Assembly: GCA_913043025.1 (NCBI GenBank)
Contig: CAJWLM010000024.1
Location: 1 to 43,915 of the forward strand
Reading direction: 5' to 3'
Length of the DNA stretch: 43,915 nt
Origin: an uncultured Rhodospirillaceae bacterium
GTDB taxonomy: Bacteria; Pseudomonadota; Alphaproteobacteria; UBA8366
This document shows, one piece after another, positions 9,571 to 33,255 of this stretch. Position numbers and translations under genes: made by a program. The notes beneath the pieces are model-generated. The model was not told the origin of the DNA and ran no database searches. It worked only from the letters and a program-made list of their open reading frames with translations. Numbering within the stretch: the first letter of the stretch is position 1; the number at the start of each line of letters is the position of its first letter.

Positions 9571-9674
9571 GATACTGTCTCTCAAATTATATTTCTAATT
9601 CTGAATTATTTCCGCTTATATCTGTGATTCTCTCTTCCTAAATTTTTGTAGATATGAAAGAGGAAACAAGAAGT

Positions 9675-10868: not shown

Positions 10869-10869
10869 T

Positions 10870-11841: not shown

Positions 11842-11997
11842 TATTAATCTCCCCAATTTAACACCTACTTTGTATAACACATATAACCCGCTTGCTTGAT
11901 TCCTAGCCTTGCCACTCATCATAAGTCAATCATCGGTATGGCTATCCTTATTGCAATTGTTGCCGTAGGTTGTGGATAACGGAGGATAGAATATCCA

Positions 11998-12900: not shown

Positions 12901-12903
12901 CGG

Positions 12904-13841: not shown

Positions 13842-13871
13842 GAAACGTGTTTGTGGGCTGAGGAGGAGGTC

Positions 13872-15281: not shown

Positions 15282-15282
15282 A

Positions 15283-15894
15283 ATGGAGGCTTTTACGTCC
15301 CTGACTGCAATTGCAATTCCATTTGATCAAGTTGATGTTGATACCGACCAGATAATACCGGCGCGGTTTTTACGGAAACATCGGAGTGATCCCGACTATG
15401 CATCATTCCTGTTTAACAACGCTCGATATAATGACGATGGTTCAGAGAAAGAAGATTTCATTTTGAATCAAGAAAAATATCGGCACGGCCAGATAATCAT
15501 CGCTGATGAAAACTGGGGCTGCGGATCCTCGCGAGAGGCAGCTGTCTATGCATTGTTAGCGAATGGTATTCGTGCAGTGATTGCGCCCAGTTTTGGAGAT
15601 ATTCATTACAATAATGGAATGAAGAATGGCATGCTACCCGTTCGGTTACCCATTATAGATTGTAATACTCTTAGAAAACAAATTCATGAGGTGCCAGGTT
15701 CACGGGTTGCTATAAATCTTTTAGACCAAGTAGTCGTTGGGCCTGAAGGAACTAATTACAGCTTTGACATTGATCCTTTGCACAAGCATTGCATGGTAAA
15801 TGGACTTGACGATATAAGCTTAACTCTTGAACATGAAGAGGCTTTAGGCGCTTATGAGAAGAAAAGGCAAATTGAAGCGCCTTGGCTATATTAA
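15283..15894 (+). CDS. 3-isopropylmalate dehydratase small-subunit family protein (LeuD-like)
   Basis: The 203-residue swivel-domain subunit partner of the preceding gene, which it follows by one base. DVDTDQIIPARFL near residues 18-30, NWGCGSSREAA near residues 79-89 and the C-terminal IEAPWLY are classic LeuD features, and length matches the family (about 200). Together the two subunits bind substrate in an isopropylmalate-isomerase-like heterodimer in the cytosol. The stop lies fourteen bases from the end of the convergent lyase gene, with no room for a classic intrinsic terminator. Substrate assignment depends on the LeuC partner. Confidence 0.87.
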   Translation: MEAFTSLTAIAIPFDQVDVDTDQIIPARFLRKHRSDPDYASFLFNNARYNDDGSEKEDFILNQEKYRHGQIIIADENWGCGSSREAAVYALLANGIRAVIAPSFGDIHYNNGMKNGMLPVRLPIIDCNTLRKQIHEVPGSRVAINLLDQVVVGPEGTNYSFDIDPLHKHCMVNGLDDISLTLEHEEALGAYEKKRQIEAPWLY

Positions 15895-15908
15895 TTACAC
15901 CGGCGCAT

Positions 15909-16817
15909 TTAGCGCTCCCCAAAATTCGCCTCGTAGTCCGTCCAATCTTTATAATCAAATAAGGCGAATAAGTCAGGTTGTTCAAACATCCAATCTGTCA
16001 TTCCTTCTGTCGTGCCCTCTTTCTTAAGATGTTCAAGAACGCGAGTGCCTGACTTGCCAAGAACTCGCCCCATCGAGCCTGGATAAATAGCTAAGTCATA
16101 CCCTAGCTCTTGCAGTTCTGTGGTTTTTATGAATGGTGTGCGACCCCCTTCAACCATATTAGCCAATGTAGGTGCAGAAATTTGCTCATTGACCATCCGC
16201 ATTTCGTCAATACTTTCAGGGCTCTCCACGAAGGCTACATCGGCACCAGCCTCAACGTATGCATTCATACGATCAATAGCTTCATTGATTCCGAATTCGG
16301 TCCGAGAATCAGTCCGCGCCATCACAACGAAGTCTGGATCGTCACGAATATCAACTGCAGCTTTGATCCTGCCACACATTTCATCAACTGATGCAATGAC
16401 CCGGTTCATCATGTGTCCGCAGCGCTTGGGCCATTGCTGGTCTTCTATTTGAATGCATGAAATACCAGCTTTTTCATAATCGCGGGCAGTCCGAACTACA
16501 TTGAGCGGTCCTCCGTACCCTGTATCTGCATCAGCGATAATAGGTATCTCAACTGCATCGGCAATCCTGCGAATGTGAGATATAATTTCTCCATATGATA
16601 GCATGCCGAGATCTGGGGCACCCATTAGGCTCATAGAAATTCCAGCCCCCGTCAAATATAGTGCGTCAAAGCCGGAATTCTGAACGATACGCCCTGAAAT
16701 ACAGTCAAAAGCACCAGGCGCCACCAATATTCCATCAGACTGTAAAAGTTTGCGCAATTCCGTATTGCGCCCCTTCTTATTTTTTAGTCCGACCGGCAAG
16801 TTTTTTTTATCTACCAT
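15909..16817 (-). CDS. Isocitrate lyase/PEP mutase superfamily lyase (methylisocitrate- or dimethylmalate-lyase-like)
   Basis: A 302-residue TIM-barrel protein of the ICL/PEP-mutase superfamily. Metal and substrate residues are visible in IIADADTGYGG (Asp96, Asp98) and CIQIEDQ (Glu125, Asp126). The catalytic loop is KRCGH (residues 131-135) with the Cys expected in true lyases such as methylisocitrate lyase and 2,3-dimethylmalate lyase; it is absent in phosphonopyruvate-type mutases. It should split a malate-like acid into pyruvate or glyoxylate plus a second carboxylate. ATG 16817 has GAGGAG nine bases upstream. It is the last gene of a same-strand series with two ADP-forming acyl-CoA synthetases, which could capture the released acid, and faces the LeuCD-like pair. 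Confidence 0.87.
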   Translation of the reverse strand: MVDKKNLPVGLKNKKGRNTELRKLLQSDGILVAPGAFDCISGRIVQNSGFDALYLTGAGISMSLMGAPDLGMLSYGEIISHIRRIADAVEIPIIADADTGYGGPLNVVRTARDYEKAGISCIQIEDQQWPKRCGHMMNRVIASVDEMCGRIKAAVDIRDDPDFVVMARTDSRTEFGINEAIDRMNAYVEAGADVAFVESPESIDEMRMVNEQISAPTLANMVEGGRTPFIKTTELQELGYDLAIYPGSMGRVLGKSGTRVLEHLKKEGTTEGMTDWMFEQPDLFALFDYKDWTDYEANFGER

Positions 16818-16901
16818 TACAAAACTCCTCTAAATTTTAATCAATTTTCATTTTAGTTAAGATGAGGTTCCTTGTCGCAAGGCATGCCAGGCTTCCTTGT
16901 A

Positions 16902-18995
16902 TTATTTTAAGATTATGAGTCCATCCGCAGCTACTGCGCCTTTGCCATCTTCTCTGACGATGAGTGGATTGATCTCGGCCTCAGTAAGCTTTGGCCTCTT
17001 AATGAATGCAAGTTGCGACAAGGCTACTAATGCATTAGCGATCGCTCCAAGATCCCCCTTCGGCATTCCGCGATAACCACAGATAGGGGCCAAACCCTTT
17101 ACCTCATCTATCATATCGTAAGCAGTTGCATGGCTAACAGGTGCTATGCGTACGGCGGCATCGCCGTAAACTTCAGATAAGACGCCACCGGCACTAAGCA
17201 CAACAGTTGGACCTACGAGTTCATCAACCCGATACCCTATTAGGACTTCAGCTAGGCCCTTTTCCATACTTTGGATTAAGAATCCTTCTATCTTTGCCCG
17301 AGGAAGTGATCTTGAGACCCGCGCCTCCATATCCCGTACTCCGGTCTTTAATTGTTTGGGGTTCTCAATATTTACTAATACACCTCCAACTTCCGTTTTG
17401 TGGGGTATATCTCGTGATACAATTTTAGCAACACAAGGAAAACCCACAGATTTCGCGGCTTGTACCGCTTTTTCTATATCTTTCGCGAATGCAGCTGCGA
17501 CTTGTTTTATGCCAAGCTTACTAAAAACCGTGCGACATTCTCGTTCGCTCAGTGCGCAAGCGCTTTTACTACCTAGCGCCTTTCGGGTTGCTTTGAGATC
17601 AAACTGAGGGCCTCTTGGGAGTGGTGAGGGTTCTTTCCAGTGAAGGAATGAATGCATGGCATCTGCACAACTCTCGGGCGTTCGGAAGCAAGGCACCCCC
17701 GCTTTGACCAGAAGTCGGCCGCTTTCGGCAGCTTCTGGAACTAAAAACCCTCCAAGAGGTTTAGCCTTTTTGGCAAACTTTATGAGGGATTGTACCGAAA
17801 CCTCTGGATTGAACTGAGCTGATGAGCCCACAACCATGACCGCGGCATCATTAGCATCTGAATTCATTACCTCCTTGAGCACCCGCTCCGTGTTTTCGGC
17901 TGTTGCACCTTTGTATGTTAGATCTAACAATGGACCATTTGAGATTAATCCCCCTGCTTCCTCAATACGTGCAACCGCGTCTTCTGGCAGAGGCACAGCG
18001 TTTAATCCGGCGACCCCTAGACGATCAACGGCCATGCCACCTCCACCACCAGTTGTTGTAATGACTGATACATTTTTACCAGGTCGAGGTTTCCGACCAA
18101 TTAACAAATTGGGCATTTCCAAAAGAGTTTCAAACTGATCCACCCTCACTACGCCATTATGCTTAAAATAAGCATCAACAGCGCTGTCTGTCCCAGCAAT
18201 GGCACCGGTGTGACTAGCGGTGAACTCAGCAGCAGCATCAGAACGGCCAAGTTTATATACAATTACGGGTTTTTTTGCGGTAAAGGCGCGACGCACCATT
18301 TCTGTAAATGCCGGCTCATGGCGTATGGTCTCCAAAAAGAGCAGAATGCATTTTGTTTTTGGATCCTTTATTAAGATCTCTCCAATTTCTGCAACAGAAA
18401 CATCACATTCGTTGCCAATAGAGACCATTTTTGAAAATGCCATACCACGATGCTGGCCGCGAGACAGGAATGTGCCAGTAAGGCTGCCACTCTGGGAGAT
18501 TACGCCAATGCTGCCTTTAAATATTTTCGGTAGTTGTAATACTGTATTGGGCGAGATCATTGCAGGTGGATCCATACAGTAGATACCCATACAATTGGGG
18601 CCAATAACACGAACATTTCCTTTTTTTGCTTCTTGAACAACCTCCGCTTGCAGCTTTGCACCGTCAGTGCCGGATTCAGCAAAATCAGCGGTGAAGATCG
18701 TCGCTACCTTAACCTTGGCTTGCGCACAGTCTCGCATCACGGCTGGAACTGCTTTTGGTCCAGTCATTATGAACGCGTGGTCAATTTGATCAGGGACTTC
18801 AGTGACTGATTGATATGCTTTAACACCATAGACTTTTTTTCGTCTTGGATTGATAGGGTAGATTTTACCCTTGTAGCCGTGTTTCTCTAGGAATTGTTGT
18901 GGACGTGAATTATTGCGTCCCTTGTCGTCTGATGCTCCGATTAATGCGATATTTCGTGGTTCAAAGAGTGCTTTTGCTAAGCGTGAGCTGGCCAT
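16902..18995 (-). CDS. ADP-forming acyl-CoA synthetase (fused alpha-beta), copy 1
   Basis: A 697-residue NDP-forming acyl-CoA synthetase. In order: a CoA-binding Rossmann domain (about residues 8-135, starting ALFEPRNIALIGAS), a succinyl-CoA-synthetase-like flavodoxin region (ISQSGSLTGTF near 167), the phosphorylated His about residue 262 in TASHTGAIAGTDS, a second flavodoxin domain, and a C-terminal ATP-grasp domain (from about residue 480; GFPCVAKIVSRDIPHKTEVGG). It interconverts acyl-CoA, ADP and Pi with acid, CoA and ATP, so it can either activate an acid or make ATP from a thioester. It is 21 bases downstream of its paralogue and upstream of the lyase gene. Substrate unknown; relatives prefer acetate, branched or aryl acids. 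Confidence 0.9.
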   Translation of the reverse strand: MASSRLAKALFEPRNIALIGASDDKGRNNSRPQQFLEKHGYKGKIYPINPRRKKVYGVKAYQSVTEVPDQIDHAFIMTGPKAVPAVMRDCAQAKVKVATIFTADFAESGTDGAKLQAEVVQEAKKGNVRVIGPNCMGIYCMDPPAMISPNTVLQLPKIFKGSIGVISQSGSLTGTFLSRGQHRGMAFSKMVSIGNECDVSVAEIGEILIKDPKTKCILLFLETIRHEPAFTEMVRRAFTAKKPVIVYKLGRSDAAAEFTASHTGAIAGTDSAVDAYFKHNGVVRVDQFETLLEMPNLLIGRKPRPGKNVSVITTTGGGGGMAVDRLGVAGLNAVPLPEDAVARIEEAGGLISNGPLLDLTYKGATAENTERVLKEVMNSDANDAAVMVVGSSAQFNPEVSVQSLIKFAKKAKPLGGFLVPEAAESGRLLVKAGVPCFRTPESCADAMHSFLHWKEPSPLPRGPQFDLKATRKALGSKSACALSERECRTVFSKLGIKQVAAAFAKDIEKAVQAAKSVGFPCVAKIVSRDIPHKTEVGGVLVNIENPKQLKTGVRDMEARVSRSLPRAKIEGFLIQSMEKGLAEVLIGYRVDELVGPTVVLSAGGVLSEVYGDAAVRIAPVSHATAYDMIDEVKGLAPICGYRGMPKGDLGAIANALVALSQLAFIKRPKLTEAEINPLIVREDGKGAVAADGLIILK

Positions 18996-19016
18996 TTTTT
19001 CCTCTTGTCTCTGACG

Positions 19017-21107
19017 TTAACGGGTTTTTATTATTAAGCCATCAACTGCCACAGCCCCTTGTTTTTTAATGATCACTGGGTTTATTTCTGCATCAGTAAT
19101 CGTATCAACCAGGAAGGCTAATTGTGAAAGCTTATGGATTATAGTTGCGACCGCTTTAAGGTCCCCCCTCGGAAGCCCGCGGTAACCACGAACCGGAGCT
19201 AACCCCTTGACTTCATTTATCATTTCCAAAGCAGTCTTCTTTGTGACCGGCGCTAATCGAACCGCCGCGTCATTGTAAATCTCTGACATTATACCACCAG
19301 AACTGACCACAACAGTAGGTCCGACAATATCATCAACTCGAAATCCAACTAGAATCTCAGCTAAGCCGGTTTCCATGCGCTGCATAAGGAAACCATCAAT
19401 CTTTGCCGTTGGTGAAGCCCTATGAACATTACGTTTAATGCGTTTTATTGCGGCCTCTAAATTGCTAAGAGACTTTATCTGTAACTCAATGCCGCCAGCT
19501 TCAGTCTTATGTGGTATGTCCTTAGAAACAACCTTTATGGCCAAAGGAAACCCTATTCCTTTGGCCTTAGTCAAGGCTTGGCTCGCCGTGGTAATAAAAA
19601 CCGATTTCACCTGGCTTATGCCAAGCATTTTGAAAATGCGCTGGCACTCTTTTTCATTCAGAACTGAACCTTCGGTGCGCTTTATTGCCTTTGAAATTCG
19701 AGATAAATCTGCACTTGTTCTTTTTGGTAAAGCCCGAGGAGCCTCCCATTCTAGAAATCCGCGCATTGCATCTGCGCAGCTCTCAGGTGATTTAAAGGCG
19801 GGAATTTTCAGTGAACTCATTAGTCGAGCTGTGTCGGCAGCTTCCGGGATCAAAGCTGCTCCGAAAGGTTTATCATGACCAAGAAATTCCTTCAAAGGAG
19901 TGACAGTCCGTTCGGGATTGAACTCGGCTGACGAACCCGGCGTCATGATTACTGCACCATTATTACGCGCATTAAAGGCCTCTTGTAGTATTTGTTTGAC
20001 ATTTTTAGGGTAAGCCCCGGCAAGGGTTACGTCGATCAACGGTCCATTTGAAAACGTACCTCCAGCCTTAAATATTCGGCGTTCCGCGTCTTTAGGAAGC
20101 GGCGTAGGTGAAAGGCCATTAACGCCAAGATTATCAACAACCATCCCGCCGCCACCACCGGTAGATGCTATCACTGCAATATTTTTATTTTTGACTGGCT
20201 TTCGGCCCATTGCAAGGTAGGTCATTTCGAAGAGGCTTTCGAAGTGCCGTACTCTTATGATGCCATGCTGTTTAAAAAAAGCATCTACTGCAGAATCAGT
20301 TCCTGCTATTGCCCCCGTATGCGATGCAGTGAACTCTGCTGCTGCCTCGGACCTTCCAATTTTATAAACCACGATAGGTATATTTTTAGAAAAGGCACGC
20401 TGCGCTGCTGCAGCAAATGCTTTGTAATCACGAATAGTCTCCAAAAACATAAGAATAATTTTTGTTTTTGGATCATCGATCATAATCTCAGTAATTTCAG
20501 GTACAGATACGTCACATTCATTTCCGATTGAGACAATCTTTGAAAAGGCTAGACCACGATGCTGTCCTCGAGAAACAAAAGTGCCTGTAAGGCTCCCACT
20601 CTGACTAATGACCCCAATACTTCCTTTCTCAATCTTGGGAATTTGCATGATCCGATTCGGTGATATTATTGCCGGTGGATCCATGCAGTAGACACCCATG
20701 CAATTCGGGCCAACAATTCGTACGTTGCCCTCTTTTGCAATTTGCATCATTTCGTCTTGGAGCCTAATGCCGTCTGGTCCGGCTTCAGCAAAATTAGCGC
20801 TAAATATGGTTGCCACTCTTACCCCAGCTTTTGCGCAGTCTTGTATTACTGCAGGGACGGTCCGTGCCGGCGTCATCACTAAGGCGTGGTCTATAGGACC
20901 CGGGGCATCTGAGACGTTGGCATAGCATTTGTGGTTGTAAACTTTTTTACGCTTAGGATTTACCGGAATTATTCTCCCTTTATAACCGTGTTTTTCCAGA
21001 TAGAGTGGCGCCATTGCATGATGACGGCGACCCTCATCAGAGGCACCTATCATCGCTACTGAGCGTGGTCGGAACAGAGCATTAGCTAAGCTTGCTTTAC
21101 GAGGCAT
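19017..21107 (-). CDS. ADP-forming acyl-CoA synthetase (fused alpha-beta), copy 2
   Basis: A 696-residue tandem paralogue of 16902-18995 with the same domain order: CoA-binding domain opening ALFRPRSVAMIGASD, ISQSGSLTGTF, the catalytic His about residue 263 in TASHTGAIAGT, and an ATP-grasp part with KVVSKDIPHKTEAGG. The two copies are alike in motifs but differ over much of their length, especially in the second flavodoxin and the linker before the ATP-grasp domain, so the duplication is not recent. The start ATG 21107 is three bases from the stop of the upstream dehydrogenase, which indicates one transcript. Two complete single-chain enzymes rather than alpha and beta subunits point to two substrates or a mixed complex. 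Confidence 0.9.
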   Translation of the reverse strand: MPRKASLANALFRPRSVAMIGASDEGRRHHAMAPLYLEKHGYKGRIIPVNPKRKKVYNHKCYANVSDAPGPIDHALVMTPARTVPAVIQDCAKAGVRVATIFSANFAEAGPDGIRLQDEMMQIAKEGNVRIVGPNCMGVYCMDPPAIISPNRIMQIPKIEKGSIGVISQSGSLTGTFVSRGQHRGLAFSKIVSIGNECDVSVPEITEIMIDDPKTKIILMFLETIRDYKAFAAAAQRAFSKNIPIVVYKIGRSEAAAEFTASHTGAIAGTDSAVDAFFKQHGIIRVRHFESLFEMTYLAMGRKPVKNKNIAVIASTGGGGGMVVDNLGVNGLSPTPLPKDAERRIFKAGGTFSNGPLIDVTLAGAYPKNVKQILQEAFNARNNGAVIMTPGSSAEFNPERTVTPLKEFLGHDKPFGAALIPEAADTARLMSSLKIPAFKSPESCADAMRGFLEWEAPRALPKRTSADLSRISKAIKRTEGSVLNEKECQRIFKMLGISQVKSVFITTASQALTKAKGIGFPLAIKVVSKDIPHKTEAGGIELQIKSLSNLEAAIKRIKRNVHRASPTAKIDGFLMQRMETGLAEILVGFRVDDIVGPTVVVSSGGIMSEIYNDAAVRLAPVTKKTALEMINEVKGLAPVRGYRGLPRGDLKAVATIIHKLSQLAFLVDTITDAEINPVIIKKQGAVAVDGLIIKTR

Positions 21108-21110
21108 CGG

Positions 21111-22286
21111 CTATTCCGCTGCTTCTGCCGTAGCTACGCGTGGGGGACGCTGAGAGAATCGTCTTTCAAATACTCCCTCTGCTATCCGATTTCGCATCAT
21201 TTCCAATGAACCGCCAGCAATCATCCAACCTCGACAACGGCGTAAACAATACTCGACAAGCGAATCTTGGGAAAAACCGAGCGCACCCATTACCTGCATT
21301 GCCTCATTGCAAATCTCAAATCCCGCTTGGTTACAAAATAACTTAGCGATTGAGGTTTCTTGCGGATCGGGCAATCCGCGATCAGCATTAGTCGCTGCTC
21401 GATACAGAAGTAACTGGCCAGCATCAAGCTTCACTTTCATATCAGCAAATTTCCACTGGAGTCCCTGGAATTCACAAATTGGCCGACCAAATTGCTCGCG
21501 ATCAAGTGCATAGTCACGAGCGAGGCGGTATGCATGTCTGGCAAGGGATATCGAACGTGCCGTATTACCGATGCGCTCGGCGTTGAAGCCATTAATTTGC
21601 TTTTTAAATCCACCAGGACCAAGCAAGACCCTTTCCTTCGGCACATAAACATTGTCAAAAAACATTGAGACCCAACGCTCACCATTTAGGTAGGGTGTAG
21701 GGGCACCTTTGGTATAACCCTCCATTCCATTTTCAATCAAAACCGACCCGATTCCGCCAAGGCCAGGGCCAAATCGAACATAAAGAACAATAACATCGGC
21801 ATATTCACTATTACCGATAAATACTTTCTCACCATTAATTCGGAACCCGTCTCCATCTGGGGTAGCCGTTGTTTGAAGATCCGTTGTAGCCGAACCGGCG
21901 GTCGGCTCTGTCATGCCGACAGCTACAACCTTCTCACCCGCCAAAAGGCCAGGTAAATATTCCTCTTTTTGCTCTGGCGTGGCATATTCTGCAAAGGTAC
22001 GAATGGCTCCAAAGTTGCCCGCCTGAATTACATCTGCAGACCTTGGGCAAACCTGGCTAATCTGCTCTATCGCGAGCACTGCATCTAGTAAAGTTCCCCC
22101 TATGCCACCATCTTCTTCTTTTATTGTAATACCTAAGAGGCCTTGCTCAGACATCAGCTTAGCGACATCGTAGGGATACTCATGGTTGTGGGCGCGTTTG
22201 AGTGCGCCACTCGAAAGATGCCGCTCAGCGAATCCACGAACTGACTCCTGAAATAGCTTTTGTTCCTCTGGTAGCTGAAAGTCCAT
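21111..22286 (-). CDS. Acyl-CoA dehydrogenase heading the twin-synthetase operon
   Basis: A 391-residue acyl-CoA dehydrogenase. Motifs are GMTEPTAGSATTDLQ and KVFIGNSEYAD for FAD/substrate, DREQFGRPICEFQGLQW and QVMGALGFSQDSLVEYCLRR near the C-terminus. The canonical C-terminal Glu is replaced (IAGGSLEMMR), while Glu about residue 237 in GFNAERIG occupies the isovaleryl-type position, as in the twins at 8398-10868. The short Ala/Glu tail ATAEAAE is unusual but harmless. ATG 22286 has AAGGAG just upstream, and the gene leads the operon with the two ADP-forming synthetases and the lyase. It is divergent from the first amidase gene over 80 bases. Confidence 0.88.
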   Translation of the reverse strand: MDFQLPEEQKLFQESVRGFAERHLSSGALKRAHNHEYPYDVAKLMSEQGLLGITIKEEDGGIGGTLLDAVLAIEQISQVCPRSADVIQAGNFGAIRTFAEYATPEQKEEYLPGLLAGEKVVAVGMTEPTAGSATTDLQTTATPDGDGFRINGEKVFIGNSEYADVIVLYVRFGPGLGGIGSVLIENGMEGYTKGAPTPYLNGERWVSMFFDNVYVPKERVLLGPGGFKKQINGFNAERIGNTARSISLARHAYRLARDYALDREQFGRPICEFQGLQWKFADMKVKLDAGQLLLYRAATNADRGLPDPQETSIAKLFCNQAGFEICNEAMQVMGALGFSQDSLVEYCLRRCRGWMIAGGSLEMMRNRIAEGVFERRFSQRPPRVATAEAAE

Positions 22287-22366
22287 TATTATCTCCTTAT
22301 CTATCAGTATGCAGTTTATCGGTTAATTATGATTGTGGTAAAGAGGGAGTTATAGGGAGTTATTAA

Positions 22367-24040
22367 ATGAATGCAGAAAAAATAGCGTTTTTAGATATTA
22401 GCAATCAGGCTAACTTGATAAAATCGGGCCAATTGTCGCCTGTTGATCTCGTTGAAATTTATTTAGAACGAATTGAGAAATGGAACAGCATTCTCTGTGC
22501 TTGGACATTCATTTGTGGTGAACAAGCACTAGCCCAAGCAAAAGCAATGCAGGATGAGATCGTGGCCGGTAAATATCGCGGTATTTTGCACGGCATTCCA
22601 TTCGGCGTAAAAGATCAAATGATGACAAAGGGTGTGCCAACTAGTTTAGCATCCGTTATCAGAGAAGACTTCGGCTCGGACCGAGACGCCACAGTTGTTA
22701 GAAAGCTGCAAGATGCTGGTGCGATACTTATTGGGAAGCAAAATCTGCATGAATTTGGCAAAGGAGGAGCTAATACTTTCCACTTCGGTGAACCACGTAA
22801 TCCATGGAATCCAAATCATACGCCAGCTAGTTCGTCATCAGGTTCTGGGATTGCGACTGCTGCAGGTATGTGTAGTTTTTCAATTGGGGAAGATACGGGC
22901 GGCTCCATACGCGGGCCCGCTTGGGCAGCAGGTCTTGCAGGTATTCGGCCTACATTTGGGCGGGTTAGTCGATATGGCGGGTTCATGTATGCGTACACGC
23001 AAGATACCTTCGGTCCGTTGACCCGCAGCGTTTTAGATAATGCTTTGGTTCTCCAGAATATAGCAGGTCATGATCCAAATGATCCCTTAACTGGCAAAAA
23101 CCCGATTCCCGATTACCCGTCTTATATGGACGGTAATATAAGCGGCTTGCGCATTGGCTTGGTTAAAGAGCTTAGTACTGATCTCGATATGCACCCAGAT
23201 GTGGAAAAAGCGTTTAATCAGGTTCAGGGTATTTTTCAATCCAAGGGCGCTAAAATAGGTAAAGCATCGCACCCGCTTGGAAAATATAGTGTTCCGCTGC
23301 AGATGCTAACATCAGATGTAGAAGTTGCATCCATGTTATTGCGAAGCGCGTTGCGTAAGCATTGGAGTAAAGTGGATAGTGGTGTTCGCGCCCGCGTAGC
23401 GGCAGCTGCCCTTGTGCCAGGCACGTTCTACTCTCGCGCGATGCGAGCTCGTGTTTTGGTACGGGATCAGCTTATAAATCTTTTTGACAGCTATGACGTA
23501 CTGATTGGGCTTAGTCACATAGTTCCGCCGGAACTCATTCGTGAAACACGATCAACGTTAAATAGGCCAGAGGATTTTAGCAAAAAGATAGCTCATGCTA
23601 GGCGAATGCTATCCTATCCTTTCAACATTGCAAATGTCCCTGCGATGAATGTTTTATGTGGCTTTAGCAATGGTTTGCCAATGGGATTTCAAGTAGCCGC
23701 AAAACCTTATAACGAACAGATGATTTACAGGGTTGCACACGCCTATGAGCAAGAGGCAGGTTGGTTTAATACACACCCCAAACTTGAGAATACATTATCT
23801 AGCTTCGAAGCGACCACAGAAGAGAAAATTGAGCAGAATGAAATTTCAGGTGACGTTAGAACTGATATTCAGAATCTTGGAAAATTGATTGGCCTTGAAA
23901 TTCCTGATGGTGATAGCGCCGAAATCGGGTTGCGTTTTGATTCTCTTTTGAAATCGATGCATGAGATAGAGAAAGTCCTGGGATTACAGATGGATAATGT
24001 TGATCCAATCCCGCCAGTTTATCCGCATGCGCATTTTTAA
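22367..24040 (+). CDS. Amidase signature family protein with C-terminal extension
   Basis: A 557-residue amidase-signature hydrolase. The Ser-cisSer-Lys triad is readable: Lys82 in IPFGVKDQ, the cis-Ser in TPASSSSGSG (about 156-158) and the nucleophile Ser180 in EDTGGSIRGPA. The glycine-rich motif is SSSSGSG in place of the more common GGSSGGS. After the normal amidase core (to about residue 470) there is an extra segment of 80-90 mostly charged residues (EEKIEQNEISGDVR onward) found in a subset of the family. Members hydrolyse amides, ureas or carbamates. It is convergent with and overlaps by four bases the first SDR gene. Substrate unknown. Confidence 0.87.
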   Translation: MNAEKIAFLDISNQANLIKSGQLSPVDLVEIYLERIEKWNSILCAWTFICGEQALAQAKAMQDEIVAGKYRGILHGIPFGVKDQMMTKGVPTSLASVIREDFGSDRDATVVRKLQDAGAILIGKQNLHEFGKGGANTFHFGEPRNPWNPNHTPASSSSGSGIATAAGMCSFSIGEDTGGSIRGPAWAAGLAGIRPTFGRVSRYGGFMYAYTQDTFGPLTRSVLDNALVLQNIAGHDPNDPLTGKNPIPDYPSYMDGNISGLRIGLVKELSTDLDMHPDVEKAFNQVQGIFQSKGAKIGKASHPLGKYSVPLQMLTSDVEVASMLLRSALRKHWSKVDSGVRARVAAAALVPGTFYSRAMRARVLVRDQLINLFDSYDVLIGLSHIVPPELIRETRSTLNRPEDFSKKIAHARRMLSYPFNIANVPAMNVLCGFSNGLPMGFQVAAKPYNEQMIYRVAHAYEQEAGWFNTHPKLENTLSSFEATTEEKIEQNEISGDVRTDIQNLGKLIGLEIPDGDSAEIGLRFDSLLKSMHEIEKVLGLQMDNVDPIPPVYPHAHF

Positions 24041-24672
24041 TGCTGGTGCCTACTCATGCCGCCGTCAACTGGAATTACGGTTCCAGTAATGTACCTCGCA
24101 AACGAGGAGCATAAATATGTCGTTATGTTCGCCACATCCAACGGTTTACACATTTGGCCAGTTGGAATGCGTTTGGATACGTAAGCTTTGAGTTCCTCGC
24201 CTGACCATTTTTTGCGTGTTGTATCGCAGTCAATAAGACCTGGCTGGATAGAGTTGATCGTTATGCCGTGTTTTCCGACTTCTCTCGTGAGGCTTTTCGA
24301 CCAAGCTGCGATTGCCCCCCAGGCTGCAAATTCACTATTAAAATGCATAGGTTCGAAACTACCTATCACGTTGACGACACGGCCAAATTCATTCTCGATC
24401 ATGAATGGTAACGCACTGTGGGTAATTTTTCTCGTTTCATCAAAATAATGTGCCATATCTGCATGCCAGGTTTCTGAGCTTGCGCCTAAGTCGGTTGACA
24501 TTGGATTACGAATGTCAGCGGAAGCATTTACTACGATATGCACATTTGTATCTCCTGAATTTGCGATCTGGGTGCCTTCTGCCGAGAGCGCCGATCTTAC
24601 GGCGGTTGCAACCTCATTGTCTCCAGTAACTAGCGCTTTCTTAGCTTTGAAACCCCAATCTCTAGCCATCAT
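24037..24672 (-). CDS. Degenerate SDR-fold protein without catalytic residues
   Basis: A 211-residue short-chain-dehydrogenase-fold protein, shorter than the usual 245-260. The nucleotide-binding TGxxxGxG loop is altered to VTGDNEVATAV, and the active-site region reads NVIGSFEPMHFNSEFAAW: where YxxxK should stand there are Glu and Trp. The later SDR parts are good: ITINSIQPGLI and the C-terminal GTVIPVDGGMSRHQH. It is clearly related to the adjacent gene (24681-25451), from which it is separated by eight bases. It cannot work as a classical SDR oxidoreductase; it may be a structural or regulatory partner of its neighbour, a lyase-like variant, or a decaying copy. Confidence 0.83.
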   Translation of the reverse strand: MMARDWGFKAKKALVTGDNEVATAVRSALSAEGTQIANSGDTNVHIVVNASADIRNPMSTDLGASSETWHADMAHYFDETRKITHSALPFMIENEFGRVVNVIGSFEPMHFNSEFAAWGAIAAWSKSLTREVGKHGITINSIQPGLIDCDTTRKKWSGEELKAYVSKRIPTGQMCKPLDVANITTYLCSSFARYITGTVIPVDGGMSRHQH

Positions 24673-24680
24673 AACTATCC

Positions 24681-25451
24681 TTAAAAAGTAAATTTACGGA
24701 AACCACCGTCCACCGGGATTACAGAGCCGGTAATTTGACTGGCAAGTGGTGATGCTAGAAAAGCAATCAGGTTGCCAATATCCGAGGGATCACCAAAGGT
24801 GCCTAGCGCGATATCGTAGTCTTCATAGGTTGCTCGCTCCTCCTGCGAGTAATTCCTAAGTATCTGTTCGCTAACAATTTTGCCAGGTGGAATACAATTT
24901 ATCGTGATGCCAAATTTTGCGACCTCTCTGGATAGACCTTTGGACCAAGCATGCACTGCTGCCTTAGCTGGGTTTGCAGTGCGCGGTTTTTCAGGTTCAG
25001 ATTTGCCTGTTATGTTGACAATTCGGCCATACCCTTGATCAATCATGCCTGGCAAAATTGCACAACTTATCTCTCTAACAGCCCCATAATTTAAATGCAT
25101 CTCTTGATCCCAATATTTTGAAGGATAGTCTAGCGGCAGGTTTTTAGGGGCGGCTGGGTCTTTACTACGACCGGCGGAATTAACCAAAATATCAACTTTT
25201 CCGAGGGCCTGTAGAGCCTCTAAAGCAAGTTCGGTTGTCGCATTCTCTTTAAACAAATCTTTAGAGATTGGAATTGGACGTACCCCACCAAGTTTTTCAA
25301 TGTTGTCAGAAAGTTCAACTAACAGGTCGAGACGTCGAGCACTGATAACACATCTGACGCCGTCCATTGCCAATACCTTAGCTGTGCCCTCCCCAATTCC
25401 TTGGGAAGCTCCAGTTATGAGAGCAGTTTTACCATCCAACTGCAGTTCCAT
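24681..25451 (-). CDS. SDR-family protein lacking the catalytic Tyr
   Basis: A 256-residue SDR protein with an intact cofactor loop (ALITGASQGIG, residues 10-20) and NSAG, FabG-like in outline, ending ITGSVIPVDGGFRKFTF. The active-site segment is unusual: NITGKSEPEKPRTANPAK gives Lys163 but Ala159 where the catalytic Tyr belongs, and the catalytic Ser is replaced by Gly/Thr. NAD(P) binding is likely; hydride transfer of the classic kind is doubtful. It lies upstream of the truncated relative and both sit between two amidase genes. ATG 25451 is preceded by an AGGAAT sequence (weak SD). Confidence 0.85.
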   Translation of the reverse strand: MELQLDGKTALITGASQGIGEGTAKVLAMDGVRCVISARRLDLLVELSDNIEKLGGVRPIPISKDLFKENATTELALEALQALGKVDILVNSAGRSKDPAAPKNLPLDYPSKYWDQEMHLNYGAVREISCAILPGMIDQGYGRIVNITGKSEPEKPRTANPAKAAVHAWSKGLSREVAKFGITINCIPPGKIVSEQILRNYSQEERATYEDYDIALGTFGDPSDIGNLIAFLASPLASQITGSVIPVDGGFRKFTF

Positions 25452-25542
25452 GCCTATTCCTCTTAATCATTATTTTATCGAGATTTTAACACGGTCTCAT
25501 TATGATAAAAGTGATCTTTAATATCTTTCAGGTGAGCCTATT

Positions 25543-26967
25543 ATGACAGAACCCTACGAATTAGATGCCTGTGCCGCAAGGGATGCAATATTAAAATCAG
25601 CGCTATCTCCGGTGGAGCTCGTAAGTAGTTGTATCAGTCGAATAGAACGGGTGGATCCATCTTTAAACGCTGTTGTAGCAAATTGTTTTAATCGTGCGCT
25701 TGATGAAGCTAAAAAAGCGGAGCGTGCTGTGGGAAGTGGGGCCAAACTAGGTCCGTTGCATGGGTTGCCCATACTCATTAAGGATTTGCAAGATACCAAA
25801 GATTTGAGAACTACATATGGATCTCTGCTTTACAAAGACCATGTGCCTGAAAAGGACGAAAGCAATGTTAGCGTGCTTCGTGAAGCAGGCGCGATAATTC
25901 TTGGGAAAAGCAATACACCGGAATTCGGTGCTGGCGCCCATACCGTTAACAAAGTCTACGGTGCTACAGGTAATCCTTTTGATATTACCCGCACGTGTGG
26001 GGGTTCATCAGGCGGTTCTGCAGTGGCATTAGCGGCAAGTATGGTGCCATTGGCGAGTGGTTCAGACTCTGGGGGTAGCCTCCGTATTCCTGCTGCATAT
26101 TGTGGTGTGGTTGCTCACCGGAGTACACCTGGCATTGTCCCGACAGAGCGGCACAGCATTGGCTACACCAACTATTCTGTGCAGGGGCCTATGGCCCGAA
26201 CGGTTGCTGATACCCAGCTCATGTTATCGACATTGGCGCGGTACGATGATCGTGATCCGTTATCCACCCCGTGGGCTCGAGAAAGATTTCAAAAGTCTGT
26301 TAGCGTCGACCTATTCGATCTAAAGGTTGCGTTCTGTGATGATCTTGGTTTCGCTGAGGTAGATGATGGTTTGCGTTCAATTTTTTGGGAGCGAGTGGAA
26401 CACCTCAAGCCCTTATTCAAAAATTGGGTCGATGCTGCACCTAATTTACTCGACGTGCGTCGTTGTAATTGGGTTCTGCGCGCTGTGCATTTTTTATCCA
26501 AGCATCGTGACCGTTATGAAAATCGGCGTGATGAATTGGGGCAAAACGTAATAGACAACTATCAGGCCGGATTAAAGCTTGATGCAATGGACATAACTTG
26601 GGCGCTTCAAGAGCAAACTAATATTTTTCGTTCTATGAGTAACTTTTTTGAGGATTATGATCTACTAATTTGTCCAACTAATGCTATCCCACCATTTCCA
26701 ATAGAACAGCGTTATTGCAATCAAATAAACAATAAAAAGTTCGATAATTATGTTGAATGGATGGCTCTCACGTGGGGCTTGACTATTCCGGGTAATCCTA
26801 TCACGGACCTTCCCTGTGGCTTGGATCACACAGGAATGCCATTTGGGCTTCAAATTTGCGGCCCTCACTTCTCTGATAGTTTTGTTCTCGGTGCTGCATC
26901 GGTACTCGAGAAGTCACTATCAGAGAATGAAATTACAACCCGACCTGTCCCGGATCTTGCTTGGTAG
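25543..26967 (+). CDS. Amidase signature family protein
   Basis: A 474-residue amidase of the GatA-like signature family with a textbook triad: Lys80 in LPILIKDLQD, cis-Ser near residue 156 in CGGSSGGSAVALA, and nucleophile Ser179 in GSDSGGSLRIPA. Length is standard. It hydrolyses an amide or related bond in the cytosol; there are no gatB/gatC neighbours, so a role in tRNA amidation is unlikely. It is only distantly similar to the amidase at 22367-24040. The stop is six bases from the end of the convergent RidA gene. Together the amidases and RidA suggest use of a nitrogenous organic compound, by inference. Confidence 0.88.
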   Translation: MTEPYELDACAARDAILKSALSPVELVSSCISRIERVDPSLNAVVANCFNRALDEAKKAERAVGSGAKLGPLHGLPILIKDLQDTKDLRTTYGSLLYKDHVPEKDESNVSVLREAGAIILGKSNTPEFGAGAHTVNKVYGATGNPFDITRTCGGSSGGSAVALAASMVPLASGSDSGGSLRIPAAYCGVVAHRSTPGIVPTERHSIGYTNYSVQGPMARTVADTQLMLSTLARYDDRDPLSTPWARERFQKSVSVDLFDLKVAFCDDLGFAEVDDGLRSIFWERVEHLKPLFKNWVDAAPNLLDVRRCNWVLRAVHFLSKHRDRYENRRDELGQNVIDNYQAGLKLDAMDITWALQEQTNIFRSMSNFFEDYDLLICPTNAIPPFPIEQRYCNQINNKKFDNYVEWMALTWGLTIPGNPITDLPCGLDHTGMPFGLQICGPHFSDSFVLGAASVLEKSLSENEITTRPVPDLAW

Positions 26968-26973
26968 CAATTA

Positions 26974-27321
26974 TTACTTTGCTGCAGTCACCACAATTTC
27001 AACTAGGGTTTCAGGTGAACCAAGTCCAGTGCAAACGCAAGCACGTGTTGGATGATTTCCAGGAGATAACCATGCCTGCCAAGCCTCGTTCATCATCGGC
27101 TTTTGCGACATATCGGCCACATAAACAGTTGCCGAAAGTAATTTTGATTTATCTGTTCCGGCTTGTGCAAGATAACCATCAATTTTTTTTAAGACTTGCG
27201 CGGTCTGCTCCTTGATACCTACTGAATTATCATCCGCAGTATTCCCGGATACGTAGACAACACCATTATGTTCAACAACCTTGCTCATAATGTCGTTTTG
27301 ATCATGTCTCGTTATAGTCAT
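26974..27321 (-). CDS. RidA/YjgF/RutC family protein
   Basis: A 115-residue member of the RidA superfamily, small trimeric proteins that hydrolyse reactive enamine/imine intermediates or, in RutC, a carbamate-derived acid. VVYVSGNTADD, the LATVYVAD-like segment and the conserved Arg in NHPTRACVCTGLG are present, the Arg being the substrate-binding residue. The end lacks the usual -EIEAVA form (VEIVVTAAK instead), as in the RutC-like subgroups. It is 39 bases downstream of the GntR gene on the same strand, so it may share its transcript and control. Confidence 0.85.
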   Translation of the reverse strand: MTITRHDQNDIMSKVVEHNGVVYVSGNTADDNSVGIKEQTAQVLKKIDGYLAQAGTDKSKLLSATVYVADMSQKPMMNEAWQAWLSPGNHPTRACVCTGLGSPETLVEIVVTAAK

Positions 27322-27360
27322 GGTTTACTCCAACTTAATAAATGCGAGATATTCCCTACC

Positions 27361-28029
27361 TTAATGTGAAGTGGGACTGTCCTCAATCGCTTTGCGAACT
27401 ATTTCGCAGGTGTTCGCAAGATGTCGGCGCAGAAGATGCCCGAGTTTTTCTCCATCACGAGACTCCAAGGCAGCCAATAATTCTTCGTGTTCTTTGACCG
27501 CAGTCGACCACCGTGTTTCTGAAATATTTGCCACGTATCGTGCGCGACGGATACGAAATGCGAGTGTTTGATACATATTCATCAAAATGTCATTTCCCGC
27601 TATCTCTAGGATTTTTTCGTGAATACGTTGGTTCAAGTGGAAATAAGCAATCAGCTCTCTACGCGTAAAATGAAGAACCATTTGATAGTGTAATGCCTTT
27701 ACCTCTGCAATGTCCGGGTTTGTCGCTTTTTTAGCTGCTAGCTCTCCAGACAGAGCTTCGAGCACCCCCATGACTTCGAAAAGGTCATCAACTTCTTTCG
27801 CAGAAACTTTTGTTACGCGGGCTCCACGATTTGGAAGTAATTCTAACGTTCCCTCAGAGGCGAGTGCTCTGATCGCTTCCCTTAAAGGTGTGCGTGAAAC
27901 ACCGAATTGTTCAGTCAAAAATCGTTCAGGGACTCTTTGGCCGGGTGCTAAGGTACCGTCAAGTACCATTTCACGAATATCTCTGACAAGATTATCGTGG
28001 AGGGAACTAACATGATTATCGTTGGGCAT
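27361..28029 (-). CDS. GntR-family transcriptional regulator, FCD (FadR) subfamily
   Basis: A 222-residue repressor-type regulator. Residues about 10-75 form the winged helix-turn-helix with GQRVPERFLTEQFGVSRTPLREAIRAL split over the two helices, and residues 85-215 the all-helical FCD effector domain with the His residues expected to hold a metal (HYQMVLHF, RIHEKI). Effectors of this subfamily are usually carboxylic acids. Its ATG overlaps the TAA of the upstream FAD dehydrogenase (TAATG), so the two are coupled. The divergent promoter region upstream of that dehydrogenase holds two identical TTGTATGCAA sites that fit FCD-type operators. Confidence 0.9.
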   Translation of the reverse strand: MPNDNHVSSLHDNLVRDIREMVLDGTLAPGQRVPERFLTEQFGVSRTPLREAIRALASEGTLELLPNRGARVTKVSAKEVDDLFEVMGVLEALSGELAAKKATNPDIAEVKALHYQMVLHFTRRELIAYFHLNQRIHEKILEIAGNDILMNMYQTLAFRIRRARYVANISETRWSTAVKEHEELLAALESRDGEKLGHLLRRHLANTCEIVRKAIEDSPTSH

Positions 28030-30977
28030 TATTGCACCATCGCCTGATCCAATACCCTGACCACGTGTTGTGCTTTTTTTTGTGCTCCGTCAATTATTTG
28101 ATGTCGACAACTAGTACCATCAGCTATGATTAGAGTGGTATCTTCTGCTTCCCTTGCGGCAGGTAGTATCGACATCTCGCCCATTTTGAGTGAAAGGTCA
28201 TATGTTTCTTTTTGATAACCGAAACTTCCGGCCATACCGCAGCAACTGCCAGATACGGTGGTGATTTCGAGGTTAGGGATAAGGCTCAATACCTTCTGCA
28301 CTGAACTCATCGTGGCAAATGCTTTTTGATGGCAATGGCCATGTAGAAGTGCTTTTGAATGTGTAAGCGGTTGTAGCCGAAGTTTGAGATTCCCTGAATC
28401 AGATTCTTTTGCCAAAAATTCTTCAAATAGCATCGCATTCTCAGATATTATCTCGGTGTCTGGCCCTGGTAATAAGGCTATGTATTCATCGCGAAGCATA
28501 AATATTGAGGAAGGTTCAAGTCCGATGATTGGCACCCCACCCTCGGCAAAGGGTTTTAGTTTATTGACCATCTCTTGAATTCGCTTTTGAGCTTTTTTAA
28601 CCATGCCTGTAGCTAAGAGGGTCCGACCGTCGTCAAGTGGATGCCCATTATCTTTGCCAAGTATATGAACTCTATATCCTGCTCCTGTTAGCACCTTTAC
28701 TGCGCTTTGAAGATTTTCGGGTTCAAAGTACGAATTGAAAACATCTGCTAGAAGCACCACTCGCGGGCCATTTGAAGGGCCAACTGCATTTTTAGATACT
28801 CTAAACCAATCAGTGCGCCAACGGGGTAATTTGCGGCGAGAACTTATCCCTGTAACAGCCTCGGCTAACAATGCAGCGCCGGGTATCCAATTACGAGCAT
28901 TAAATAGCCACGGCAATTTTGCTGCATATGGTGCATATGCAGGTAGGTAAGCTATCAGTTTATCCCTTAACGTGAAGCCGTGACGGTTTTTATAATGGTG
29001 GAGGAACTCGATTTTCATTCGTGCCATATCCACCCCAGTCGGACATTCACGTTTGCAGCCTTTACAGCTTACACAAAGCGCCATTGTCTCCGCCATCTCG
29101 TCGCTTACAAGAGCGTCTTTTCCGAGTTGTCCAGATAACGCAAGTCGAAGAGTGTTAGCGCGTCCACGAGTAAGGTCTTTTTCGTCGCCAGTAGCACGAA
29201 AAGAGGGACACATTACGTTGGCATCTTTTTTCCGACACGCACCATTATTGTTACACATTTCGGTTGCGCTCGCGAAGCTGCCCCATTCCGACCAATCAAG
29301 GACAGTATCAATTGCCTTTTGCTTATAATTAGGCTTGAAGCGAAAGAGTGATCTATCATCCATCTTTGGTGAGCGCACAATTTTGCCCGGGTTTAAGAAC
29401 TGTTTAGGATCGAACATATCTTTTATGTGTTCAAAATCTTTCACAATCTGTTCACCGAACATTTTGTTGTGAAATTCAGACCGAACCAAACCGTCACCGT
29501 GCTCGCCCGAGTGAGAACCTTTGTATTCGCGAACCATCGAGAAAGCTTCTTCGGCGATTGCACGCATTTTTCTCGCCCCATCCTCTTCTTTAAGATTGAT
29601 CACTGGGCGAACATGCAAGCATCCAACGGACGCATGAGCATACCAAGTCCCTTGTGTACCATTTTTTTCGAAAACTTCGGTAAGCCGGTTAGTATACTCG
29701 GCCAAATCCTCCAATGGGACGGCGCAATCCTCTATAAAAGAAATCGGTTTGCCCTCGCCCTTCATTGACATCATAATATTTAATCCGGATTTACGTACCT
29801 CCAGTATTTCTTTTTGATGTTTCGCAGCGATGACGTCTACCACGGAGTTTGGAAACCCTAGGTCACTCATCAAAACGTCGAGCTCTTTCAAGTGCCCAAG
29901 TTGTTCACTCTCATCCTCACCTGCGAACTCAACCAAGAGCAAACTATCTGGCCTTCCCCGGACGAACTTTTCGATCGTCGGTCGAAAAATTGGAATATCC
30001 AATGCTAAATCCATCATTGTTCGGTCGACAAGTTCGACCGATGTTGGATTAAGTTTTACGATGTGTCGAGTTGTATCCATTGCCTTATGGAAAGACGGAA
30101 AGTGGCAAATGCCAAGTACCTTTCGGGATGGTTGCCGATGAAGTTTGAGTTTTATTTGAGTCGAAAAGCCGAGTGTTCCTTCGGATCCAACAAGAAGATG
30201 GGCGAGATTTACCCCTCCACCCCCCGGTCGATTTGAGGCGCCCGGCACTAGGGAGTCAATGTTATATCCACCTACTCTGCGCATGAGGCGCGGAAAACGG
30301 GCGAGAATTTCATCTGCTTCCCGATTGCCAAACTCGAGCAATTGGCGCGCTAGCTGTAGATAGGATTCAGGTAGATCGGCCTTTTCAATATCAACAGGTA
30401 ATTCGCCAAAATGATGTTTTTCGCCGTTAGCAAGAATAGCATCAATGGCGATCACGTTATCTCTCATAATACCATAACGAATAGAGCGTGAACCACAGCT
30501 ATTATTGCCAGTCATTCCACCAATGGTGGCTCGGCTAGAGGTGGAAACATCAACCATGAACATCAGACCATGCGGGTCAAGCAGCCCATTTAACTGGTCA
30601 AGCGCGATTCCGGGTTCGACTAAAATGCTTTCTGATCCCGGGTCAAATTCAACAACTTTGTTGAGGTGTTTGCTTACATCGAGGACCAACGCCTCACCGA
30701 TAGTTTGGCCGGATTGAGATGTGCCGCCGCCGCGTGGAAGAATAGGAATATCTTCCTCGCGTGCGATTTCCATTGCTGCCTCAATATCTCCTACAGTTTT
30801 AGGAACGACTACTCCGATAGGCTCTATCTGGTAATGGGAAGCATCTGTGCTGTATCGACCTCGGCTGAAGCGATCAAACAGAACTTCACCCTCTAGTGAG
30901 TTCCCAAGTCGTGCAGCTACGGAGCTATCGCCGATACGAGATTTTTCCTCAGTGACTATTTGATGTCGGAATGTCAT
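28029..30977 (-). CDS. FAD-linked oxidase with Fe-S and CCG domains (YdiJ-type D-2-hydroxyacid dehydrogenase)
   Basis: A 982-residue fusion. The N-terminal third is a PCMH-type FAD domain (ILPRGGGTSQSGQTIG, about residues 75-110; GGMTGNNSCGSRS), followed by the FAD oxidase C domain (HSGEHGDGLVRSEF, near 490), then a 4Fe-4S region (CNNNGACRK; LCVSCKGCKRECPTGVDM near 635-655) and a CCG domain with GHCHQKAF and SGSCCGMAGSFG. The length and order match E. coli YdiJ, a D-2-hydroxyglutarate dehydrogenase, and also fused D-lactate/glycolate dehydrogenases. It should pass electrons from a D-2-hydroxyacid to the quinone pool at the membrane. It is coupled to the GntR gene and divergent from the aminotransferase. 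Confidence 0.9.
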   Translation of the reverse strand: MTFRHQIVTEEKSRIGDSSVAARLGNSLEGEVLFDRFSRGRYSTDASHYQIEPIGVVVPKTVGDIEAAMEIAREEDIPILPRGGGTSQSGQTIGEALVLDVSKHLNKVVEFDPGSESILVEPGIALDQLNGLLDPHGLMFMVDVSTSSRATIGGMTGNNSCGSRSIRYGIMRDNVIAIDAILANGEKHHFGELPVDIEKADLPESYLQLARQLLEFGNREADEILARFPRLMRRVGGYNIDSLVPGASNRPGGGGVNLAHLLVGSEGTLGFSTQIKLKLHRQPSRKVLGICHFPSFHKAMDTTRHIVKLNPTSVELVDRTMMDLALDIPIFRPTIEKFVRGRPDSLLLVEFAGEDESEQLGHLKELDVLMSDLGFPNSVVDVIAAKHQKEILEVRKSGLNIMMSMKGEGKPISFIEDCAVPLEDLAEYTNRLTEVFEKNGTQGTWYAHASVGCLHVRPVINLKEEDGARKMRAIAEEAFSMVREYKGSHSGEHGDGLVRSEFHNKMFGEQIVKDFEHIKDMFDPKQFLNPGKIVRSPKMDDRSLFRFKPNYKQKAIDTVLDWSEWGSFASATEMCNNNGACRKKDANVMCPSFRATGDEKDLTRGRANTLRLALSGQLGKDALVSDEMAETMALCVSCKGCKRECPTGVDMARMKIEFLHHYKNRHGFTLRDKLIAYLPAYAPYAAKLPWLFNARNWIPGAALLAEAVTGISSRRKLPRWRTDWFRVSKNAVGPSNGPRVVLLADVFNSYFEPENLQSAVKVLTGAGYRVHILGKDNGHPLDDGRTLLATGMVKKAQKRIQEMVNKLKPFAEGGVPIIGLEPSSIFMLRDEYIALLPGPDTEIISENAMLFEEFLAKESDSGNLKLRLQPLTHSKALLHGHCHQKAFATMSSVQKVLSLIPNLEITTVSGSCCGMAGSFGYQKETYDLSLKMGEMSILPAAREAEDTTLIIADGTSCRHQIIDGAQKKAQHVVRVLDQAMVQ

Positions 30978-31028
30978 GCTTGGCTTTCCTGCATAAACTC
31001 TACTACAATAATATGGCAGAGCTTGAGA

Positions 31029-31038
31029 TTGTATGCAA
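31029..31038. promoter_or_regulatory. Candidate GntR/FCD operator, copy 1
   Basis: The near-palindrome TTGTATGCAA lies 52 bases upstream of the FAD dehydrogenase start. It is a one-mismatch inverted repeat of the kind bound by FCD-type GntR regulators, and an identical copy occurs 84 bases away. Assignment to the regulator at 27361-28029 is inferred. Confidence 0.5.
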
Positions 31039-31112
31039 AAAAAATAAAAAACGGAAACAAATATGTAAAATATTGATTTTATTGAGTATAAACTTATTAA
31101 CGATTACTTATT

Positions 31113-31122
31113 TTGTATGCAA
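31113..31122. promoter_or_regulatory. Candidate GntR/FCD operator, copy 2
   Basis: A second TTGTATGCAA, identical to the copy at 31029-31038, lies 38 bases upstream of the aminotransferase start, where it could overlap the promoter of the rightward genes. Flanking bases are also alike (T before, A-rich after). Two identical ten-base sites in one 180-base divergent promoter region are unlikely by chance. Confidence 0.5.
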
Positions 31123-31159
31123 AATGAGCGCTTGAGAAATTAATTAGGGAAAACATTAT

Positions 31160-32344: not shown

Positions 32345-32350
32345 ATTTCC

Positions 32351-33130: not shown

Positions 33131-33255
33131 GGGTTGCGGGCAGCTTTATCTAGTGTTCCCATGTGAGAACAGGTAATTGCAAATTAATCGAAAAGGAATA
33201 GTCTTTGCTTTGGCTTCCTGCGGATAACTTTCTCTTAACTAGGAGATAAATAAGC

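Follow-up and report, generated by a model that had tools for sequence, protein, structure and literature searches.

The (alpha-hydroxybenzyl)succinyl-CoA dehydrogenase BbsCD is reportedly (by the title of a FEBS J. 2021 article) a heterotetrameric short-chain dehydrogenase/reductase (SDR) with inactive pseudoenzyme subunits. To our knowledge, it is the only bacterial precedent for an SDR that is kept together with a cofactor-less pseudoenzyme. Its subunit BbsD keeps the full catalytic tetrad. AerF and BacG/YwfH reduce C=C bonds with NADPH, and their SDR active sites are non-canonical; AerF acts without the YxxxK motif, and both AerF and BacG carry a replacement Lys and Tyr on helix E. Halohydrin dehalogenases are SDR-derived enzymes that have lost the cofactor site and use a Ser-Tyr-Arg triad. 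BcSDR of Burkholderia cenocepacia (PMC11614110) binds NADP+, has an LxxxK motif with a Leu for Tyr that is conserved across an order, and keeps Ser131 and Asn83; its mechanism is called open by the authors. Here we describe two adjacent genes in a 43,915-nucleotide stretch of an uncultured Rhodospirillaceae bacterium (contig CAJWLM010000024.1; hereafter the window). Their products are designated LP (long protein) and SP (short protein). By analogy with BbsCD, we consider it rather probable that the two form a heteromer, in which LP would be the NADP(H)-binding, active-site subunit and SP the cofactor-less pseudoenzyme partner.

Both open reading frames (ORFs) were confirmed on the minus strand with 8 bp between them (Table 1). 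LP residues 86-253 and SP residues 44-208 are homologous (39 % identity over 168 columns, E-value 2e-37, one 3-residue gap), and Pfam adh_short_C2/adh_short matches both proteins (128.1 bits for LP and 87.2 bits for SP; cut-off 27). AlphaFold2 predicted confident SDR folds for the single chains (predicted local distance difference test 90.2 for LP and 89.3 for SP). Pfam scores, models and PDB matches thus place both proteins in the SDR fold superfamily. When the NCBIfam named SDR families were compared, none reached its cut-off among the best 25 of the 215 (LP) or 167 (SP) matching families. The top score was 140.4 bits against a cut-off of 231, the FabG models among the matches listed were all under their cut-offs, and the families beyond the best 25 have weaker E-values.

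In the family alignment, the Asn, Ser, Tyr and Lys positions of the catalytic tetrad are occupied by Asn121, Gly149, Ala159 and Lys163 in LP and by Tyr76, Gly104, Glu114 and Trp118 in SP. LP therefore has the Asn and the Lys only, and all four residues are replaced in SP. The cofactor motif TGxxxGxG is present in LP as TGASQGIG; SP reads TGDNEVA, and about 45 residues of its nucleotide-binding half are gone. A preliminary description of the locus, made from the sequence alone, had placed Ala159 of the long protein and a Glu of the short one at the same spacing and had reported that the latter lost the Lys and the cofactor loop. The ORFs and the family alignment bear out both points, and the loss of the catalytic Ser in LP is a further one that it had missed. 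The same description named another Tyr in the active site as a finding that would count against it. At the sequence level there was no replacement active-site Tyr: Tyr is the majority residue of the LP-type rows only in columns 218 (23/38) and 239 (35/38), the window LP holds Thr and Gln there, and each of its own seven Tyr is Tyr in at most 16 of the 38 rows. Column 239 is Tyr in all five SP rows. Arg39-Arg40 after strand 2 suggests that the cofactor of LP is NADP. As judged from its sequence, SP cannot bind NADP(H) in the usual mode.

SP was found next to LP at all five readable loci (the window and genomes G005, G009, G345 and G423), with a gap of 8 to 21 bp from LP to SP. At a sixth SP locus (G002:C21:1-444), the start of the contig cuts SP, and neither LP nor any gene past it was found in the G002 assembly, which is listed as 100 % complete. 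All five LPs of the paired subclade that were found by the searches adjoin an SP. No SP without LP was observed in the SP searches (relatives, class, G345 relatives and phylum genomes), where the remaining matches were LP-type loci. G345 and G423 belong to a different taxonomic family from the window genome, and the pair is therefore present in two taxonomic families. The plasmid search with SP yielded two records, of which one is an LP-type gene of Roseomonas and the other, from Pseudomonas oryzihabitans, matches with 37 % over SP 43-206. Judging from the junction sequence, LP and SP are probably translationally coupled.

The SP gene has fewer nonsynonymous changes than the neutral expectation in the comparisons window-G002 (p 3e-7), G009-G005 (p 1e-10) and G345-G423 (p 1.5e-4); L026 and L027 contain ambiguous bases and 8 codons were skipped. 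Thus, SP is a kept gene, as purifying selection was seen in three comparisons. For window-G002, the ratio of nonsynonymous to synonymous rates (dN/dS) was 0.18 for SP and 0.13 for amidase 1, the gene that is convergent with SP. Between the window and G009, the identity is 63 % for SP versus 74 % for LP. Between the window and G345, residues 65-211 of SP share 44 % identity and residues 1-64 share 32 %; this tilt alone is weak since it is similar in LP (62 % versus 52 %). In G005:C27 and G009:C40, the LP copies are nearly identical (dS 0.03) and the adjacent SP copies, with ambiguous bases, have a dS of 0.33. This mismatch may reflect recombination or assembly trouble.

The homologue searches detected LP-type proteins (41-74 % identity) in 13/98 relatives (E up to 1e-45), in 15/385 class genomes and in 10/388 phylum genomes (both E up to 1e-50), with the own genome counted in each of these. 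Further members came from 7/111 G345 relatives (E up to 1e-50) and from four plasmid records. The counts come from separate searches that overlap, and some genomes recur. The taxa are Alphaproteobacteria, Betaproteobacteria and one Nitrospinota metagenome-assembled genome, and four members are annotated only as 'SDR family oxidoreductase'. The patterns used in a scan of named genomes were too general, and 3 of at least 80 loci (L036, L037 and L038, the last of Bradyrhizobium type and without SP) were taken as members. The first alignment had 36 LP-type and 4 SP rows and the final one 38 and 5, respectively. The latter gained five LP-type and two SP rows and dropped the near-duplicates L016, L022 and L127 and the partial SP L028, which in the first alignment do not differ from the other rows in the Ser and Tyr columns; the LP of G423 is absent from the alignment and the tree.

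The Ser column is Gly in all 38 LP-type rows, and the Tyr column is Ala in 35, Gly in 2 and Ser in 1. The earlier alignment agrees (Gly for Ser in 36/36 LP-type rows, Tyr in 0/36). Of the four residues on which the SDR mechanism relies, Ser and Tyr are thus absent from every LP-family member examined. Other positions are invariant (Arg126 and Gln196, 38/38 each) or nearly so (Glu152, 35/38; His167, 33/38). The Lys column holds Lys in 32 rows, Asn in 5 and Cys in 1, and the residues at and near the nucleotide site are kept (Asp65, 36/38; Asn91, 38/38; Asn121, 37/38). One branch of the family (L019, L020, L023, L024 and L131) has Asn also for the catalytic Lys (e.g. PPNGAVHIWAKA), so that Ser, Tyr and Lys are all gone, with Asn121 retained. 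Eleven columns hold a residue that is invariant in the SP rows and rare (<=10 %) among the LP-type rows; Glu114, His209 and His211 are three of these. The four paired LPs are distinguished by nine columns, e.g. Lys191 for Arg and Tyr122 for Phe.

In the phylogenetic tree, a 100/99 branch sets the LP family apart from 23 other SDRs. SP forms a single clade (100/100) inside the LP family, and the four paired LPs with rows form another (100/99) with a branching order that agrees with that of SP. By these sequence comparisons, SP descends from the LP family and the Tyr loss in LP is an old family trait. It is inherited and not specific to the pair, because all 38 LP-type rows are without the Tyr and most genomes with an LP-type protein are without SP. 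Ser and Tyr were most likely lost in the family before the divergence of its present members.

The preliminary description treated the missing Tyr as a hallmark of the pair, and this does not hold since the wider LP family is also without Tyr. It asked whether the two proteins always occur together and named frequent occurrence alone as evidence to the contrary. SP does occur only beside LP at the readable loci; LP-type members often stand without SP, which is the contrary case for the family. Its view of a pair held by selection, with one member retaining the NAD(P) site and the other not, is supported by the sequences.

The proposed heteromer would work as follows. LP would use its retained nucleotide-site residues (TGxxxGxG, Arg39, Asp65 and Asn91) plus Asn121 and usually Lys163, and its family has fixed other residues (Arg126, Glu152-Pro153, His167 and Ser194-Glu195-Gln196). 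SP has lost the nucleotide-binding half, the Asn, Lys and His and the SEQ loop. What it retains are both long helices (66-93 and 113-135 in the SP model) and the region of the C-terminal strand, the elements from which SDR tetramers are built. A mixed oligomer is suggested because the genes are adjacent and probably coupled, the proteins share common descent and the interface halves are kept. The coupled pair would give an LP/SP heteromer, probably LP2SP2, of which only LP would bind NADP(H) and bear the active site. SP may stabilise LP or complete the substrate pocket, perhaps via its invariant C-terminal RHQH. With Ser and Tyr missing, LP is unlikely to reduce carbonyls by the standard mechanism. 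The reaction would probably be a hydride transfer independent of a Tyr acid/base, e.g. conjugate C=C reduction, with an organic acid or acyl thioester as the substrate. C=C hydride transfer as in AerF is our first guess, and a non-redox role is its main rival.

Several observations weigh against this proposal. SP is absent from most LP-type genomes when the own genome is excluded (10/12 relatives, 13/14 of the class and 8/8 of the phylum, the last being genomes listed by both the LP and SP searches), so SP appears dispensable for the basic function of the family. The pair is patchy: neither protein was found at the cut-offs used in G001 (same genus, 84 % complete) or in G003, G004, G008 and G010 (same family), and a readable pair is present in only five genomes. 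In the tree, SP does not come out as the sister of the paired LPs and is attached at an open fork by a long stem (0.96); it may therefore derive from another family member. It also evolves faster than LP, with dN/dS of 0.15 versus 0.06 in G009-G005 and 0.34 versus 0.26 in G345-G423. Part of the family may be non-redox because the Lys is Asn in 5/38 and Cys in 1/38 rows and Glu152 is missing in 3/38. Lastly, the neighbours of SP-less LP-type members are diverse and thus point to no substrate.

The main alternative is that both proteins are non-redox. The SDR fold would then serve for lyase or isomerase activity or for binding, with a nucleotide that is structural or unused. Ser and Tyr are absent throughout the LP-type rows, Lys is replaced in 6/38, and the invariant Arg126 and Gln196 and the nearly invariant Glu152 lie beside the emptied site. 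However, the conservation of Asp65, Asn91 and Asn121 would be odd without cofactor use, and we regard this alternative as unlikely. A composite site in an obligate heteromer without Ser and Tyr is given a small chance. LP would provide NADP(H), Asn121 and Lys163 and SP the acid/base or substrate-binding groups, namely the invariant C-terminal RHQH and possibly Glu114; the LP family would then be a widespread Tyr-free SDR lineage with its own catalytic set of Arg126, Glu152, His167 and Gln196. It is also quite improbable that SP is a free-standing regulator or substrate-binding protein that does not assemble with LP. It has invariant residues of its own and a confident fold predicted alone, but it follows LP closely at the five readable loci, was found nowhere else, and retains the regions that provide the oligomer surfaces of SDR tetramers. 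A decaying duplicate without function, which the lost nucleotide-binding half and catalytic positions and the faster evolution might indicate, is hardly credible given the purifying selection, the copies found without internal stop codons, the presence in two taxonomic families and the invariant Glu114 and RHQH. The BbsCD-like heteromer is our preferred reading.

G005 and G009 retain the gene order amidase 1 - SP - LP - amidase 2 - RidA - GntR - FAD/FeS dehydrogenase - aminotransferase. This set lies in a larger cluster (window 8398-34116) that is kept piecewise in relatives (8398-24672 in G002, 15283-34116 in G005 and G009). The cluster contains acyl-CoA dehydrogenases, two ADP-forming acyl-CoA synthetases, a phosphoenolpyruvate mutase/isocitrate lyase family lyase, aconitase-like subunits, two amidases, RidA, FAH and a YdiJ-like FAD/FeS protein, with no obvious substrate. 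The class V aminotransferase at 31160-32344 scores 424 bits to BhcA (L-aspartate-glyoxylate aminotransferase; cut-off 650) and by this score is a relative rather than an equivalog.

In G423, the pair adjoins a 3-hydroxyisobutyrate-dehydrogenase-like gene, DUF1194 and a CoA-transferase III gene, and the stretch in G345 matches that of G423 piecewise at 90-95 % identity. A tblastn search (E up to 1e-8) of the fetched G345 and G423 flanks (19.9 and 15.5 kb) with 39 window ORFs recovered LP, SP and, weakly, a CoA-transferase, and nothing else. We therefore rejected the amidase partnership as a general rule. LP and SP are the conserved unit and the amidases are outside it, because the pairs in G345 and G423 stand without homologues of either window amidase in the fetched flanks. 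The amidase link that had been drawn for the pair is accordingly not general, and nothing was found in favour of the amide or hydroxamate chemistry suggested with it. Organic-acid or acyl-CoA metabolism is the sole loose thread common to the pair contexts. The pair thus shows a cofactor-less partner that is retained in two taxonomic families in different gene neighbourhoods.

The neighbours of SP-less LP-type members were also surveyed (27 loci tried, of which L140 had no gene call). TctC receptors (7), LysR regulators (7) and MFS proteins (6) were seen at the 26 loci; no control set was scanned and no enrichment is claimed. No constant partner was found among the 136 neighbour proteins in the best 25 of 186 families listed. 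The 17 of 153 called neighbours that were excluded were too short (13, <170 aa) or too long (4, >690 aa), and the scan also covered ten neighbours singly.

For a control, we read the same columns in the 34 further SDR matches listed for the own genome (G000; L195-L228). Tyr and Lys are present in the aligned columns of 23, and 11 have no Tyr in the YxxxK column, two of which carry YxxxK elsewhere. A single Tyr-less SDR is thus unsurprising in this genome. Two adjacent ones are explained by common descent, because both belong to one Tyr-less family. Several of these matches have Gly for Ser (e.g. L201, L204, L206, L209 and L210), and an SDR match at G000:C10:94165-94905 has a single internal TAA and is possibly a pseudogene.

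Table 1 Features of the LP/SP locus and its flanks (window coordinates)
Feature	Position	Strand	Description
LP	24681..25451	-	SDR-fold protein, 256 aa; TGxxxGxG, Asn121 and Lys163 intact; Gly149 for Ser, Ala159 for Tyr
LP codon 159	24975..24977	-	Ala, classical Tyr position (ORF position and family alignment)
LP codon 149	25005..25007	-	Gly, classical Ser position; Gly in 38/38 LP-type and 5/5 SP rows
SP	24037..24672	-	Truncated SDR-fold protein, 211 aa; without GxG motif and Asp65 region
SP residues	within 24037..24672	-	Glu114 for Tyr, Trp118 for Lys, RHQH at C-terminus
SP codon 114	24331..24333	-	Glu, classical Tyr position; Glu in 5/5 SP rows
SP codon 118	24319..24321	-	Trp, classical Lys position; Trp in 3/5 and Ser in 2/5 SP rows
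LP/SP junction	24673..24683	-	AAGGA, Shine-Dalgarno-like, overlapping LP stop codon, directly before SP start
LP/amidase 2 intergenic region	25452..25542	.	Divergent, 91 bp; context
Amidase 1	22367..24040	+	Convergent with SP, 4-bp overlap; context, outside conserved unit
Amidase 2	25543..26967	+	Divergent from LP; context, outside conserved unit

In comparison with known systems, the best PDB sequence matches of LP and SP are FabG-type 3-oxoacyl-ACP reductases, which have Asn-Ser-Tyr-Lys, whereas neither LP nor SP has the full set. The structure matches (VIA-align) include FabG-like proteins, AerF, BbsD and many other SDRs. The LP model aligned with AerF (6jh7) with Z 33.2 and a root-mean-square deviation (rmsd) of 1.6 Å over 245 residues, the lowest rmsd among the best 50 matches listed, and with BbsD (7pcs_B) with Z 32.3 and rmsd 2.1 over 242 residues. 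No functional relative can be picked by Z because dozens of SDRs tie; the Z of AerF, too, is tied with many ordinary SDRs. In addition, LP has Asn121 and Val125 in the helix E columns of the replacement Lys and Tyr, unlike AerF and BacG. The halohydrin dehalogenase HheD8 (PDB 8xxb) ranked 43 for the SP model (Z 25.2), but SP has neither the Ser nor the Tyr of these enzymes. In the case of BcSDR, the replaced Tyr is shared with LP, but in the LP family Ser has given way to Gly, and Tyr to Ala, Gly or Ser, in place of the LxxxK arrangement.

Among the titles listed from the open-access literature, none dealt with the LP family or the LP/SP pair, an absence that is weak as only open-access titles were covered. 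If the LP family is active, it would offer a clear test of SDR hydride transfer, or of other chemistry, without Ser and Tyr. As in BbsCD (PDB 7pcs), adjacent SDR genes encode two proteins of which one lacks the cofactor motif and the catalytic residues. Unlike BbsD, however, LP is without Ser and Tyr. BbsCD is considered an analogue, with homology not shown, because LP is no closer to BbsD than to other SDRs (tied Z). If the pair works as proposed, it would be a second case beside BbsCD.

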